This document shows positions 43,855 through 60,346 of a stretch of DNA of 64,000 nt, in pieces. Each line of letters begins with the position of its first letter. The stretch's first letter is position 1. The position numbers and the translations under genes were made by a program. The stretch is from Methylotuvimicrobium alcaliphilum 20Z (GTDB lineage Bacteria; Pseudomonadota; Gammaproteobacteria; Methylococcales; Methylomonadaceae). Location of the stretch: contig NC_016112.1 in the NCBI RefSeq assembly GCF_000968535.2, positions 1,860,001 through 1,924,000 on the forward strand, written 5' to 3'. The notes under the pieces are model-generated. The model had not been told where the DNA came from. It ran no database searches and saw only the letters and a program-made list of their open reading frames with translations.

Positions 43855-45606
43855 CTAGGTTTTAAATTGGCCAACCATTTCTTTTAATTGACTGGCTAAG
43901 GTCAGCAATTCTCGGCATGCGGTCGTTGTGTTTCTAGCGCCGACCGAAGTTTCATTGGAAACCGAGCTGATATTGCTGATGTTGCGGTTGATTTCCTCGG
44001 CGACCATACTTTGTTGTTCGGCGGCGCTCGCGATTAAATTGTTCATGTCGTTGATTGTATCGATTTTATCGCTGATGCTGGCGATCGCCTCGCCGGCCGA
44101 TGCAGCTTGATCAACGCTGGTCGTGGCTTGTTTTTTTCCGTTTTCCATAACTTTAACAGCTTGTTCGGCGCGGGTTTGTAAGCGTTCTATCGTTTTTTGG
44201 ATTTCCAATGTTGAATTTTGCGTGCGGCTTGCCAGTGTTCTGACTTCGTCGGCGACAACCGCGAATCCTCGGCCTTGTTCGCCGGCTCTAGCCGCTTCGA
44301 TTGCGGCATTCAATGCCAGGAGGTTGGTTTGTTCGGCGATACCTTGAATGACGCCTAATACTTCGCCGATGCTATTGCTATCCGACTGCAGTTCATGGAT
44401 GACATGCGCGGCATTTTCCACTTCGGATGCCAGCCGGTTAATGTCTGCAACGGCAGCCGTCACAACATTTTTGCCTGTCAACGCTTCGGCGTCTGCTTTT
44501 GATGCGGCCTCTGAGGCTTTAACAGCATTGCGAGCGACTTCTTGAACGGTGGCTGTCATCTCTTCCATTGCTGTCGCTACTTGTGTGGTTTCCGATTGTT
44601 GCCTATCGACACCGTGTTCGGTTTCTTCGGAAATATTAGCAAGTCGTTGCGAGGCTTGAGTCAGTTGCTCGCTGGTCGTGCTGATGTGGTCGACGGTTTT
44701 GGCTATTTTTTTCACGAAATTGTTGAAACTATGCGCAACCCAAGCAAATTCTGTTTTTCCTTCGGTTTTTAGCCTGGCTCTCAGGTCGCCTTCTCCGCTG
44801 GCAATATCTTGTAGTTTCAGTGCCAGATCGGTTAACGGTGCAATGATGATGCGGTTCATCGAAATATAACCGGCTGCCCCTATTACGATCAACGTGATAA
44901 TCGTAAAGCCTATTGCGTACAATACATGGGTTCTTAGTTGTTCATTGACACGGTTCAGCGGTGTAATGATTTCAAAGGCGCCATGAAGGTCGCCGGCACG
45001 CTTGTTTTCCATTCGATAACCAAGAATATCGCTTCCTGCATAATTGCCCCACAGTTCGCTAGAAGTTGCCGGATCGCCATGGCAAAATTCGCATTGCTTG
45101 GCCAATCTTACCGGTCTAAAATAGCGGATTTCTTGGGTTTCTTCGTCGATGTAAGAGTATTCGGTGGATTGCGGGTTATTTTGGAAGAATTGAAGGGCTT
45201 TTTGTTCCAGCGCATCGGCTTCGTTAGCAGGATTCCGGGCGCCGACTCGGGGTGCTTTGAATCGGAAGTTGCCTTCTTTGGCTTTGGCTTCGACGACATC
45301 CATTGCATTCATAACCGGGACCGTAGCTAATATTTTTGCTCTGCGTTCGGGGTTTATGCTGTCGCCGGCCATTATTTTTACTAGCTCGACAGAAAAAATG
45401 CCGCTTTCCCATTTTTGATTGGTATTTTCCCTAACCGATTCGGAAACCAGTAGCAGGTTCTTGGCATTTTGAATTTCGGATTCGATCAGTTTTTGTTTTT
45501 CCGATATCCCGTACGTTACCAATAAGCCACAAGCTATGATTGCCAGTCCCGTAAGAGTGATAGCCACTACTTTAACGCCAACAGAGTTCCAATTCATCAT
45601 TATCAT
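43855..45606 (-). CDS. Methyl-accepting chemotaxis protein with c-type haem sensor (DUF3365/Tll0287-like)
   Basis: A 583-residue chemoreceptor. Helix 1 is at about 12-32 and helix 2 at about 231-253. The periplasmic part is a Tll0287-like DUF3365 domain carrying one haem-c motif CEFCH (Cys172, Cys175, His176) in [17 protein letters not shown] domain and the signalling hairpin follow, with the conserved tip [20 protein letters not shown] and [15 protein letters not shown]. It probably senses redox state or a gas ligand such as oxygen, NO or CO and steers motility through CheA/CheW. No CheR-docking pentapeptide is seen at the end (MVGQFKT). Stands alone on the minus strand. Confidence 0.9.
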
Positions 45607-46730
45607 TTTTGTTCTCCAGCATATCCTGAGTAAGTATTATATGCGATATGCATTGTCAATTGGCCGTACAGTTCAAGCCTGGTTACGGATTTAGTTGTTA
45701 AAAAGTAATTCTTCGACGTAGGTTATTTATTCATGGACAAGCTTGACCCGATGCGCCGATTAGCTCGAAGTCGGTATTGCAAACTTTAACCCAATCGACT
45801 TAAGTGCTTGTCTATGGGCTGATTACAAATCCGACTGCTGGAATAGCGGGTTTTGCATATACCCATCATAGATCAAAATTCGACACCGGGGCGATCACCG
45901 GCGCCATCTTAGGAGCTGACGAACTTTGAAGTGCGAAGGGGGTGTATATCAAAAGAGCTGTTTAATAGAGTGGTCGCGAAGACTACACCGTTAATTAGAA
46001 TAGCTTATAAATCGGCTAATGAGTATTTTACTTTAATAATAGTAAGGTTATATTGCTAAAAACGAATTTTATGAATTAAATCATAAAAATAACCTGCGTC
46101 ATCATGCGCGTAAACATGAATCCGGAAACGGTTTGTCGCTTTTTTATCATGAATACTGTCTTAACCTAAGTTTTAATAATTGTAGAGCCTGTAGACTAAC
46201 ATATTGAATTATTTGAGTTAAAAGTTATCCCAGTTGTTGACCCAACCTTTAAAAACATGGCTGGTCTCTATACGGAACTATGATGTTTATTTTTAGTTAT
46301 TCAATGCTTTATAAGCGAAAGGTGATAAAGCTTGGTTGGTTTGCTAAAGAAATCGCTGGTATGCGTCGTACAGAGTATGATCGCGGAAGTAGGGTCATTC
46401 GCGCTTAAAATTGCGGCATTGTCTGAGTCGCCTGCCCCACCGTGCCCGGTTTTTATCGGCTTGAAAGTATACATTGGATGAGATCAAATCGATACTCCAA
46501 AGAGTTATTGCCAGCAATTCCCAGTTTGAACATGTTCTCGGAGTTTAGTGTGTGGAGCATGCCTATTGCAACTTCGCTAGCCATGCACCATACCTTAATT
46601 TAATTTTTGAGTGCAAAGAGAGTAGTGGCGCTGTTCATAACAGAGGTAAAGTTAAGAGGATTCGATCCTTCAATCGTGATCAAGCTAATGTAAACTATAG
46701 GGCGTTTTAATCAAAAAAGATCGAACAGCT
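45607..46730. other. Long gene-free stretch with two diverged repeats
   Basis: I see no convincing gene in these 1.1 kb. 45859-45946 is a diverged family B element (ATACCC...ATTCGACACC; GACGAACTTTGAAGTGCGAA). 46513-46565 repeats the AGCAATTCCCAGTTTGAACA block of 43374-43430. The rest is AT-rich with no recognised RNA or regulatory motif. Confidence 0.5.
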
Positions 46731-54387: not shown

Positions 54388-54762
<375 letters not shown>

Positions 54763-54769
54763 TAGAAGC

Positions 54770-55993
54770 TTGTTTAATACCACGCAACAAAATTTATTAA
54801 GCACTTTTTTTAACCTTTGTGATTCAGACACCAATCTTTCGGCTAATATGAGGGCGCGTTGTAATGCCTTTAGTGGTTTGTCGTTCGATTCTGCGAGGAC
54901 GCAAGGTATTGTTCGGGCCGTTTCTCCCGAACAAGTCGTGCAACAAGGTACGCAGGCGACTCGAATCACTGCCGGCCAGGTCGGGTTAGTTGAAACAACT
55001 GTGAAGAACCGGATTTCCAATTTGCACGCCAGTCTTAACGCGAGGAGTCAATACGCCGGAGGTCTTAAGTTTTACCAAAATGGTCGGCCCATAAACGGAT
55101 TAGGGGGGGCGGCTGGCGATGATCTTGGATTCGGTAGCAACTTAGGCGTTTGGCTGAATATGAATATTCGGGTTGGCGATGTGAATACAACGTTTGAGCA
55201 GCTCGGCTTTAGATATGACAATTACGGATTTACCGGGGGCGCCGACTACAAGCTAACCGATAATTTAGTATTGGGTTCCGCTTTCAGTTATCTGCGCTCA
55301 AATTCCGTGTTTGGTCTAAATATGGGTGAAACCACTACAGATACTTATACAGGATCAATTTACGGGACTTATTATTTTTGGGATAACTTTCATCTTGATG
55401 CGATTGCTTCTTATGGTGGCAATGAATATCAAACGACTCGAAGGATTTCTTATACTATTCCCGGAGTTGAAACTTTTAGCGCGGAAGCCACTGCAACGCC
55501 TGGCGGTAATCAGCATGCCTACAGCCTTGGCGTCGGATATGACTTTTCATACGGCCCTTTCAGCTTGACGCCCTATTTCAGGGGTAATTATATCGGACTG
55601 TCGGTCGATTCTTACCGGGAAAGCGGCGGTGCCGGTTGGGGGATGGCATTTAGCGATCAGAATGTTGAGTCTTGGACTACAACTTTAGGAGGAGAAACCT
55701 CCTATGCGATCAGTTTGCCTTTCGGTGTCATTTTGGCTCAATTTAGGGCCGAATGGCATCATCAATATAAAGATGGGAGCAGAACGATTGGGGCTAGTTT
55801 CATAGATGATCCGAGTGGACAACGATTTAATGTGGTAAGCCAATCCCCTGATCGTAATTTTGCGACGCTAGGAACCAGCCTTTCCGGAACCTTTGCCGAT
55901 GGGTTGTCTGGATTTATCTCCTACGATGTGATGCTCGGCTACCAAGATATAAGTAGTCACAGTATCAATTTTGGTGCCAGAATGGAGTTTTAA
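54770..55993 (+). CDS. Autotransporter beta-barrel domain (C-terminal part of the broken gene)
   Basis: From TTG 54770 the frame encodes 407 residues. The first 100 are a helical linker ([22 protein letters not shown]), the last 300 form an autotransporter-type outer-membrane barrel: [56 protein letters not shown] and a C-terminal Phe in FGARMEF as signal for BAM insertion. It lacks its own signal peptide, which is in the upstream frame. Intact it would be a small surface protein held by a barrel with a proline-rich spacer. Confidence 0.85.
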
Positions 55994-56433: not shown

Positions 56434-57615
56434 TTAATCCCAATCGCATAGTTTACCCATCTCATTTCGCGGCAATTTTGAGCCTAGCGTAAAATGTTTG
56501 GGTATCTGTGTACTAGGCAGTCGAGTCGATAACCATGAAAACAGTTCGTCTATCAACATAGATGAGTTTAGTTGGCTGTCTTCATTTGGTACGATGTATG
56601 CCTTCAGTCGTTTTCCGTCGAACCTAACGACCGATTCGTGGATGGCAGCATGCTGTTTGATCTCTGAGGCAATCGCTTCGAGACTAACATTGGTTCCGGC
56701 GACTTGGATTTGTCCGTCTTTACGTCCTTGAACAATAAAGTGTTTTTTATCTAGCCAGTGTAGTTTGTCTGGAATGTTAGCGCTATGAAGATGGTTGCGA
56801 ATCGAATCGTTAACGATTTGCCAATAAGGGAACAAAGAAAACGGCTCATCAGGCTTTTTTCGATAGCCAATGCCTCCAGTTTCGGTTGCTCCGTAGATTT
56901 CAATGGTATCTGCGTTTTGCGCTAATAAAGCAGCGAGTATTTTGGACGTACAAGGTGCGCCGGCCATAACAATCGTAACCGAACGCGGCAACCTAAGACC
57001 CGAACTTATCCAATGTTGCCAAAAGTCAGGTATTGAGACAATCATGTCGCCATCCTGTAGGGTTTTTTCTAATGAAATCGGTAAACGTTGGCGCCCATCT
57101 ATCACTTCCGGCCGATTGATTAATCTGCTCGGCAATGCCATTGTAAAAATAAAGCCGTAGATATGTTGAGCCGGAATCAAAGTCCAGATTCGACGAACAG
57201 CGCTATTGCCGGTTAACAAATGCTGAGCGATAAAATCGACTTCCTGCTGAATATGAGCAAGGGGTATTGTCGTAACGACAGGAGGGGATGTCGATCCTGA
57301 GCTGGAAAAGCTGATGAAGTGATGAAAATTTTCAAGACTCGCTGTCGCGATCTCTTTCCAGCCGTTGACCGAAGGTTTTGCAAGTAAGAAATCTTCCAGC
57401 CCGGAATCCGCAATATGCAACATTTGTGCGAATGCTGTTGCGCAATCCACTAATTCCAATGAGTCAATGTTTAGCGGTGAAGCCAACCAGTTCTCTGAAA
57501 GCATAACTGCTTGCGGAGACGGCAAGTGAGCGCCAGGGCGTAATCGACTTATATGTCCAAGTACGAAATCGACAATCAATCGGCGCATATTGGCGCCGTT
57601 TTGCCACCACATCAT
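56434..57615 (-). CDS. Adenylate-forming ligase, probable p-coumarate:CoA ligase for PYP
   Basis: A 393-residue ANL-superfamily enzyme, shorter than plant 4CL. The P-loop is [10 protein letters not shown] (104-112), the A5 motif YGATETGG (241-248), the A8 motif [11 protein letters not shown] (297-307) and the C-terminal lysine Lys388 in PRNEMGKL. Residues 48-68 ([12 protein letters not shown]...) look like a carrier-protein-type motif. It overlaps the PYP-chemoreceptor gene by four bases. PYP needs p-coumaroyl-CoA to load its cysteine, and known PYP loci carry such a ligase (pCL), so this role is well supported by context. An alternative is the aryl-polyene-type AMP ligase, but no such pathway is near. 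Confidence 0.82.
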
Positions 57616-59219
57616 ACACGTTTAACAAAAATCCAATAGGTATCGCCACTCAGTGATTTTTTCATATGCACTTTAACTTTGGTCGGACGCATGTTGTAAT
57701 CAAAAGTGTATTCGAATTTTTTGTTGAGAAAGCCCATACGAGCCCCTTTGTCGAACTCGCCTTTAAATAGGGGAGTGTCTGTACAGGGGGCGACTTCGGT
57801 GAAAAAGTTTCGACCGATGACTTCTTTCGGATTACGTCCGGTTATGTCGCCTTCTGCGGAGTTATATCGCAAAATGCGGCCGTTTTTATCCAATTCGATT
57901 GCACCGAATGCAATGCTATCCAGCTCTTCGCTGCTCATTTTACGCATAGCGCTTTCGATATCGTCGCGTCCGAATTCGACAATGCTGGATGATAGTGTGT
58001 TGGTTTTAAAGTTGGAAACCAATTTTTCCAGTTTTTGCGCGCGCTGTGACAGGGCTTGACTCACTTCTTGATTTTGATTCATCGCCTGAGCGTTTGCCTC
58101 GGCGAGTTCATTAATACGAAGCATGCTTTGGCTAATATCGGTTGCTACGCTATTTTGATCGCGAGCGGCTAAAGCGATTTGTTTTCCCATATCGTAAACC
58201 GAATCCACTCGATGGTCGATTGTATGCAGAGATTCTCCGGCCTTATTGGCTTGTTCTACACAGTTATGCGCTTGTGTCGTACCTTGTTCAATCGCACCGG
58301 TTACTGCTTGTGCTGATTCTTGCAGGTCGGCAATGATGGCATGTATTTGTTGAGTGGCTTCTTGCGTATCAAAAGCGAGTTTTCGAACTTCATCGGCAAC
58401 AACGGCAAAACCGCGACCGTGTTCGCCGGCTCGAGCGGCCTCGATAGCAGCGTTCAATGCTAAAAGATTCGTTTGATCGGCAATTTTAGCGATAGTGTCG
58501 ATTACGTCGCCGATGTTGTGACTGCCCTGGTCGAGTCGACTGACCGCCGATTGCATGGATTCCATTTGATTTGCCAACATGCCGATCGAGGACATTGTTT
58601 CATTGACTACTTGTAATCCCATTTTGGTTTGTTCTTTAGCGTCGGAGGCGACTTTTTGAGTCGCCTCGGCATGCTCGGCCGTTTCATTTGATGAAACAGT
58701 CATCTGAGCACTCGCTTTGACGACCTGATCGGTCTCTTGTTGTTGGGAATGTGCAAGACCGATACTTTGGTGAGTATTACCGGCAAATTGCTCGACAGCA
58801 ACGTTAAGGTCGTCCGAGGTTCTTGCGACTTCTTCTATGATTTGATGCAATTGGCTTGAATAATCGTTGAAGGCGGAAAATAAATTTCCCAGTTCATCTT
58901 CATTTGGATATTCAAAGCGAATATTCAAATCTTTTTGCATGTTTTCCAGTCGCGAAATGCCTTTTTTAATCGGAGCGGCGAGGTTTTTCTCTAACAGTAT
59001 ATTGAGCATAATAACGACCAGCGCTATAAATGCTATCAGTATGCCGAGAAAAATATAAGCGATTTGCAAAACCTGAGATCGTACTTCTACCGATAATGTA
59101 TTAAAAACGTCATGGTTTTGCAGAGAGAAAGTAAAGATTAGGCTCGCTATAAAGAAAAAAACACTGCATAAAAAGACAGGGACAGTTAATCGAGACTTCA
59201 ATGTGTCAGATTTTGGCAT
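57612..59219 (-). CDS. Chemoreceptor fused to photoactive yellow protein (MCP-PYP)
   Basis: A 535-residue membrane chemoreceptor. Two helices (about 11-33 and 52-76) are joined by only about 20 residues, so there is no periplasmic ligand domain. After a HAMP-like part comes the MCP hairpin with tip [20 protein letters not shown] and [13 protein letters not shown]. Residues 415-535 align end to end without a gap to PYP of Halorhodospira halophila (sequence from memory): Tyr452, Glu456, Thr460 and Arg462 match Tyr42, Glu46, Thr50 and Arg52, and Cys479 in VAPCTD matches the p-coumaroyl-bearing Cys69. Both proteins end FVKRV. The receptor should convert blue light into CheA control. It lies 80 bases after the BLUF gene and overlaps the ligase by four. 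Confidence 0.95.
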
Positions 59220-59299: not shown

Positions 59300-59710
59300 T
59301 TAAAGTGTCGCGCTTAATTCACACAACATTGCATGAGCAGTGGCGCCGCTCATCTTGAAAGGATCAAATTCCAAATTGTTTGAAAAACGCAACAATAATG
59401 CTTGGTTTTCTTTGGTTAAACCTAGATATCCCATATGCCAATTATCAAAATCTCGGGCTATTATCTCGCGGTATTCCAACAAGGTTGTATCGAAATGGCG
59501 TTCATCTTCAAGAATATGACGGTACAATTCATTGACAGCTGTACGCGAGCCTTCCAATGATTGTAAAAAATTATAACCATTGAAACACAACATCCCAGTA
59601 ATGCCTTTTTGGGCATTGGCTTTGCGGGCAACTTCTAAAATCTGCTCGACATCGCTCGGTCCGAAACCTTTTCTTGCTCTGCTGGCGTATATCAGTCTGA
59701 CTAAATACAT
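59300..59710 (-). CDS. BLUF-domain blue-light receptor (PixD-like)
   Basis: A 136-residue flavin photoreceptor. The BLUF residues are all in place and even share PixD numbering: Tyr8 (VRLIYAS), Asn32 (KANAQKGITGML), Gln50 (FLQSLEG), Trp91 and Met93 (NWHMGYLG). It senses blue light with FAD through a Tyr-Gln hydrogen-bond switch. The short C-terminal tail is like PixD, with no enzyme domain, so it acts by protein contacts. I start at 59710 because GAGG lies in front of that ATG; an upstream frame to 59743 lacks a site. It precedes the PYP-chemoreceptor gene by 80 bases on the same strand. Confidence 0.93.
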   Translation of the reverse strand: MYLVRLIYASRARKGFGPSDVEQILEVARKANAQKGITGMLCFNGYNFLQSLEGSRTAVNELYRHILEDERHFDTTLLEYREIIARDFDNWHMGYLGLTKENQALLLRFSNNLEFDPFKMSGATAHAMLCELSATL

Positions 59711-60346
59711 TGCATACCTCGAGTTCATTGCTGGAGAAATCAACTGAATCGATTAATATAGTAATTGATTACCCAGTAAAAAGTAATCTGATTAAAAAGA
59801 AGCTTCGGCTTGTCGAGGCTAATATCTTGACGGGGTCCAATCGAAGCAGCTGCAGCTTTAACATATGTATCAGCAATAAGATATATATCAATAGCATCAG
59901 GTTGGCGGGAGCAGGGGGGATTTTTGATCCGGCGAAAAATTGGCACGAAGCAGTTATCCTAATAAAAAGCATTTCCTGATTAGCAAGATGCTTCAGCTTG
60001 CCGAAGCCAAGTGTCCGAGCAGTGACCAGTCGTAGCCACTTCTGCGGGACGGGTTATTTAACCCGTCCCCAACGTTTCGGTTTGCCCTAAACATTTCGGC
60101 TGACTTCGGCCAAAGTCAAAACGTTTAGGACGGGGTTGCAAGCCCCGTCCTGCTAGGGATATGCTGGTTTTTGGGCTTTAGCTGAAGAAAACTTGCTAAT
60201 CAGGAAGCATTTTGTCCACGAAACACACGAAAATATTCAATTGCTTAATTTTCAAGCCGACCACCCAATGGATGATTCAAGAGCTTGATATACCCCCTAT
60301 GATGACTTTAGTATATTTCGTGATTTTCGTGGACGCATTGCCGAAT
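59711..60346. other. Gene-free stretch between BLUF gene and glcF
   Basis: The right part holds dispersed repeats: GACGGGTTATTTAACCCGTC (60047-60066) and AGGACGGGGTTGCAAGCCCC/GTCCT (60128-60152) hairpins, and a CACGAAACACACGAAAATAT element (60216-60240) facing its inverted partner (60306-60335). Upstream of the BLUF start a GTAATCAATTAC palindrome (minus strand, about 59765-59776) lies near weak TTACTT and TACTAT boxes, a possible promoter/operator. No gene is supported. Confidence 0.45.

Follow-up and report, generated by a model that had tools for sequence, protein, structure and literature searches.

A chemoreceptor with a C-terminal photoactive yellow protein, and its ligase-like and BLUF neighbours, in Methylotuvimicrobium alcaliphilum 20Z

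The stretch of DNA analysed here (the window) comprises 64,000 nucleotides of the genome of Methylotuvimicrobium alcaliphilum 20Z (NC_016112.1, positions 1,860,001 to 1,924,000), and contains three neighbouring genes on the minus strand, namely a short BLUF photoreceptor gene (59300..59728), a chemoreceptor gene (57612..59219) and a p-coumarate:CoA-ligase-like gene (56434..57615). The chemoreceptor, or MCP, is recognised from its open reading frame of 535 codons, which has no internal stops, and from profile matches. It begins with two transmembrane segments, TM1 (residues ~10-33) and TM2 (~50-77), which enclose a loop (~34-50) and are followed by a HAMP-like region (78-126), the MCP coiled-coil hairpin (127-405, with its tip at E266), a linker (406-414) and a photoactive yellow protein (PYP) domain that extends from residue 413/414 to the end at 535. 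The Pfam model MCPsignal (PF00015) matches residues 190-372 with 145.9 bits against a cut-off of 34.6, and PAS matches residues 432-531. The HAMP match at 78-126 reaches 24.2 bits, just under its cut-off of 25, and covers positions 4-53 of the 53 in the model at the expected place.

The PYP domain (57615..57983, minus strand, residues 413-535) is matched by the NCBIfam model for photoactive yellow protein, TIGR02373, over model positions 2-124 of 124 with 184 bits (E 9.4e-55), which exceeds the cut-off of 143.05. A phmmer search against the PDB aligns residues 414-535 with positions 4-125 of the Halorhodospira halophila PYP without a gap, with identity at 81 of 122 positions (66%), and receptor numbering is that of the H. 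halophila PYP plus 410. Cys479, Tyr452, Glu456, Thr460 and Arg462 are thereby equivalent to C69, Y42, E46, T50 and R52, and all 13 of the positions checked in and near the pocket are kept (I31, Y42, E46, T50, R52, F62, V66, A67, P68, C69, F96, M100 and H108). The first-pass annotation, which was made from the sequence alone, had described a chemoreceptor at 57612-59219 with a complete C-terminal PYP, had aligned it gap-free over 415-535, had named the same five pocket residues and an FVKRV end, and had proposed TIGR02373 as a check. Its coordinates, residues and ending are right, although it gave no strand (the gene is on the minus strand), the MCPsignal and TIGR02373 matches bear out the architecture, and the gap-free alignment holds over 414-535.

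This architecture is already known. An MCP followed by a C-terminal PYP within a single ORF, which is the arrangement found here, is what defines an MCP-PYP fusion in PMC12826048, where Dohmen et al. (2025) list 12 such proteins. The annotation had allowed that such fusions might have been recorded before, as indeed they had, and its finding is a correct rediscovery. According to the available text of that paper, the first MCP-PYP is credited to Methylomicrobium alcaliphilum (G4T070_META2; Meyer et al. 2012), and G4T070_META2 is very probably the very protein encoded at 57612-59219, or its species' copy. The published examples as described there, from M. alcaliphilum (G4T070_META2), Methylomonas koyamae and Nitrincola alkalilacustris, have the same order of MCP and C-terminal PYP, with no differences in the receptor. 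The PYP of the N. alkalilacustris protein has been expressed and is photoactive, with a maximum at 447 nm and a photocycle of 0.5 s (PMC12826048).

What, then, is the likely input to this receptor? The loop between the two hydrophobic segments (~10-33 and ~50-77) is only ~16-19 residues long, which agrees with the initial description of a receptor with almost no periplasmic loop, and no other recognisable input was found in the receptor, which supports the accompanying suggestion that the PYP is probably its sole input. When the protein is compared with four relatives the hairpin tip is identical at 57, 56, 54 and 50 of 57 positions and the PYP core at 96, 88, 78 and 70 of 97, and the identity of TM1, loop and TM2 is low in all but the closest relative. 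The N. alkalilacustris homologue has gaps at 14 of the 19 loop positions; such a near-loss of the loop supports the PYP as the main input. The hairpin arms, measured from E266, are 140 residues long to the HAMP end and 139 residues long to residue 405, lengths that fit the 40-heptad receptor class. This class is the usual one among the swimming-taxis receptors of Pseudomonas.

No CheR-tether-like tail (xWxxF-like) was found on the receptor, where the C-terminus is the PYP. Among the other nine MCPs of the genome one ends in DEWEEF and four others have an acidic stretch followed by a final F. Two weak methylation-site matches lie at 156 and 308. The best of five AlphaFold models, which is of moderate confidence and for which the input was 5 sequences, has a mean pLDDT of 70.5 and a pTM of 0.31 (the others have a mean pLDDT of 49.6-66.1), and it places the hairpin turn at 263-265, the end of the C-terminal helix at 406 and the PYP elements from 419 onwards. 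The linker and the PYP N-cap have a pLDDT below 50 in this model, which therefore gives no support to a coupling mechanism.

The ligase-like gene (56434..57615, minus strand) overlaps the end of the receptor gene by 4 nt. Its product is matched over its full length by TIGR02372, the 4-coumarate:CoA ligase of pyp loci, which is by far the best-matching family; as the score of 262.5 bits lies under the cut-off of 334.7 the gene is named ligase-like only. Its product would be expected to activate the PYP chromophore. In all eight distinct MCP-PYP loci the next gene downstream, on the same strand, is a ligase gene. The ligases of six relatives of the window type score 415-849 bits against that of the window, whereas those found next to free PYPs reach at most 246 bits, and from these scores the receptor and ligase appear to form a conserved cassette that travels as one. 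The genome contains a single match to an aromatic ammonia-lyase, ~2.3 Mb from the receptor.

The BLUF gene stops 80 nt ahead of the receptor start codon. It encodes a short, stand-alone, PixD-like photoreceptor for blue light (FAD) of 142 amino acids, which Pfam BLUF (PF04940) matches with 104.8 bits against a cut-off of 25. The protein is nearest to PixD-type structures, and the Tyr, Asn, Gln and Trp of its flavin site find their counterparts in PixD in the alignment. Promoter- and terminator-like matches in the BLUF-receptor region were no more frequent than in shuffles and neither support nor contradict a shared operon. A BLUF gene adjoins the MCP-PYP gene in three of the eight loci, all within one genus (the window genome, G163 and G162, a MAG whose locus is L043), and is absent from the flanks examined of the other five, of which that of L041 spans only 3.4 kb. 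BLUF as a conserved partner of MCP-PYP is thus unsupported across loci. In the available text of PMC12826048 the only pyp operons with BLUF genes are those of Caballeronia sp. SBC2, and that text makes no mention of a BLUF gene beside the M. alcaliphilum MCP-PYP. About 1.3 kb past the window end lies a second BLUF gene (L161 12268-13152) of 294 amino acids, the product of which looks membrane-bound from its hydrophobic C-terminal half; four further genomes of the genus have similar frames.

How widespread are such fusions? Among 237 genomes of the family, that of the window included, six have a PYP above the cut-off and all six are MCP-PYPs. The presence of MCP-PYP frames of 538-565 codons in each of these six rules out an assembly or frame artefact. 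Matches of any kind at E 0.001 were found in 55 of the 237, and the other 49 score at most ~30 bits and resemble ordinary PAS domains; the control genomes gave one weak match in 14 and none in 14 past the cut-off. A search at the level of the order returned the same six genomes out of 311, and in a sample of the class seven of 369 genomes had matches at E 1e-12, six of them above the cut-off, with the genome of L041 among them. From a scan of named genomes the 80 best of 405 confirmed relatives were retained, and within these 80 MCP-PYPs occur in four: M. buryatense 5G, Methylomonas sp. SURF-1, the gammaproteobacterial MAG (G162) and N. alkalilacustris. The N. alkalilacustris protein is 57% identical to the window receptor, MCP part included.

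In L041 (412-1866), from another gammaproteobacterial family, the PYP is joined to a different MCP, in which HAMP is not visible by eye, and a ligase-like gene follows; the MCP match is 64 bits and the ligase match 110 bits. In a tree of PYP domains (88 rows, 123 columns), from which the three records that repeat others (L032, L033 and L035) had been removed, the eight fusions stand in three places, are joined in none of 200 bootstrap trees, and the starred branches require at least two changes. By the AU test neither a clade of all eight (p 0.316) nor one restricted to the seven of the window type (p 0.444) is rejected, and the PYP tree by itself is compatible with one origin of the fusion or with several. 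From their MCP and ligase parts, seven fusions seem to share one cassette, with L041 as a separate fusion that possibly arose independently. In Skermanella aerolata (L046 502-3023) a free PYP is followed by a short ORF with an MCP signalling match (64 bits) and then by a ligase; this order of genes may mirror the fusion in split form.

Within the genus the locus is subject to turnover. At the syntenic site of M. buryatense (G159) the BLUF gene is kept with 99% identity and the receptor gene is reduced to its 5' part, corresponding to window 58922-59219; this remnant (L159 8458-8985) is split by an insertion of ~143 bases that has inverted ends and a direct repeat of 8 bases, and neither the ligase nor the rest of the receptor gene was found in the 18-kb stretch compared. 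A second site in the same contig, at 3.64 Mb (the BLUF site is at 0.36 Mb), carries an intact MCP-PYP that is 73% identical to the window receptor, together with its ligase. Both flanks of this second site are present in the window genome with 96-97% identity, and between them lie 3.9 kb of other sequence, with two long open frames, that matches neither of the two cassettes. In a further genome, G160, the sequence to either side of the locus matches that of the window, yet no cassette lies there, and the genome has no PYP match. The genus supplies natural variants of presence, loss and relocation, and comparison of the loci shows which parts travel together.

With respect to chemotaxis, the genome encodes 10 MCPs, the receptor counted, and has 10 matches to the CheW domain and eight to the CheR domain; three of the CheW-domain matches are in frames of 689-764 amino acids, which on the basis of domain and length are taken to be CheA. 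Strain 20Z of M. alcaliphilum is given as motile in PMC6315193.

Observed for the window protein are its architecture, a kept chromophore pocket, a kept ligase neighbour and a chemotaxis gene set in the same genome. The gene at 57612-59219 probably encodes a membrane-anchored blue-light chemotaxis receptor, in which the ligase would activate the chromophore of the PYP, light would alter CheA activity and swimming would respond. From loading in vivo, through coupling by the N-cap, to the effect on CheA and the sign of the response, we infer the following sequence of events. The adjacent ligase would make p-coumaroyl-CoA, with which Cys479 of the C-terminal PYP would be loaded. Blue light would isomerise the chromophore and convert the PYP to a partly unfolded state that would last about half a second. 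The N-terminal cap, which takes part in the light-induced change of PYP, is connected through the linker (about nine residues) with the C-terminal coiled-coil helix at its membrane-proximal end, and the change in packing would therefore be expected where the helix meets the HAMP/adaptation end of the hairpin. The hairpin would pass this change to its tip and so modify CheA activity, and the resulting swimming response to blue light would most likely be avoidance. A partly unfolded signalling state has been described for PYP (PMC12826048), where phototaxis via CheA/CheY has also been proposed for MCP-PYPs. According to the available text, none has been seen so far, and phototaxis was not detected in N. 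alkalilacustris, the host of the homologue; in other purple bacteria inactivation of a free pyp left photomovement unaffected (PMC5812497). Counted against the light-receptor reading are the ligase score under its cut-off, the missing CheR tether and the two weak methylation matches, to which is added that the only aromatic ammonia-lyase found, at best a putative source of the chromophore, lies so far away.

Other outputs and inputs have to be weighed against this reading. A light-controlled receptor might feed a non-flagellar Che-like pathway associated with type IV pili, c-di-GMP or development, which we regard as unlikely. The receptor, at 1.92 Mb, is far from all three of the CheA-sized proteins (C2 3.29, 3.38 and 3.66 Mb), which leaves room for such a pathway, but the hairpin length matches the class usual in Pseudomonas swimming-taxis receptors, and a Pfam scan of 10 ORFs from the 51-64 kb part of the window found no GGDEF/EAL, pilus or response-regulator domain. 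PYP elsewhere has been tied to c-di-GMP and biofilms (PMC12826048). That the PYP is unloaded in vivo, or serves another sense such as redox, and is no photoreceptor in this organism, is highly improbable: the lone ammonia-lyase found is distant and only a putative chromophore source, and redox sensing has been proposed for some PYP domains (PMC9664959), yet the redox candidates described in the available text of that paper are without Cys69, whereas the window PYP keeps all 13 positions and its gene is overlapped by the ligase-like gene.

It is improbable that BLUF and MCP-PYP work as a unit in which the two chromophores would inform one receptor of different light regimes. Such a unit would accord with the shared strand and 80-nt gap, with the adjoining genes in three genomes, and with the closeness of the BLUF protein to PixD, which influences phototaxis in Synechocystis (PMC5812497). 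Against it, BLUF was not found in the examined flanks of five of the eight loci (that of L041 only 3.4 kb) and M. buryatense keeps its near-identical BLUF gene beside a decayed MCP-PYP; the promoter and terminator scan, being no better than shuffles, decides nothing. A more elaborate version for the M. alcaliphilum lineage strikes us as very unlikely: BLUF and MCP-PYP would make up one locus, the output of one chemoreceptor would be set by two unrelated chromophores for blue light, and BLUF would tune the intensity or adaptation that a tether-less receptor cannot itself supply.

The blue-light chemotaxis receptor proposed here can be placed among other photosensory systems. Blue-light avoidance is tied to PYP in H. 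halophila, and how its signal reaches the flagellar motor has been a question ever since. The H. halophila PYP has the same pocket and likewise a ligase next door, but is a free protein where that of the window is covalently joined to a chemoreceptor, and it is accompanied by both pCL and TAL, whereas the window locus has no ammonia-lyase in its neighbourhood. In Ppr and Ppd (PYP-phytochrome-kinase or -GGDEF/EAL) the PYP is also part of a multidomain signalling protein, although it stands at the N-terminus and signals through a histidine kinase or a c-di-GMP enzyme. Sensory rhodopsin-Htr shares with the window a photosensor that acts on an MCP hairpin, but there the sensor is a separate rhodopsin subunit. 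Aer, a PAS-HAMP-MCP protein, similarly brings an energy sensor to the MCP hairpin, with an N-terminal flavin PAS in place of the C-terminal PYP. In Leptospira, free PYPs lie beside sensor-less chemoreceptors, a split counterpart of the window fusion (PMC9664959, available text). The covalent fusion makes the step from PYP to motor testable in one protein, a point already made in published work. Added here are the receptor-ligase cassette, the near-loss of the loop, the 40-heptad fit and the fusion of a different MCP in another family, together with the restriction of BLUF adjacency to three of eight loci, these three all in one genus, and the decayed and relocated copies of M. buryatense.

Further features of the window and its genome were recorded alongside these genes. 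The top-scoring paralogue of the receptor in the genome is an MCP of 593 codons at 43858-45636 (minus strand), with 33% identity over 372 amino acids. An autotransporter-like gene at 54388-55993 has a beta-domain match, with its 5' part in another frame and a Glu-Pro / Ala-Arg repeat tract in between, and is possibly a slippage-prone surface protein. Finally, a repeat of ~64 bases, found when 40 of 494 candidates were scored, occurs in at least 34 places in the genome with 84-96% identity and is REP-like.
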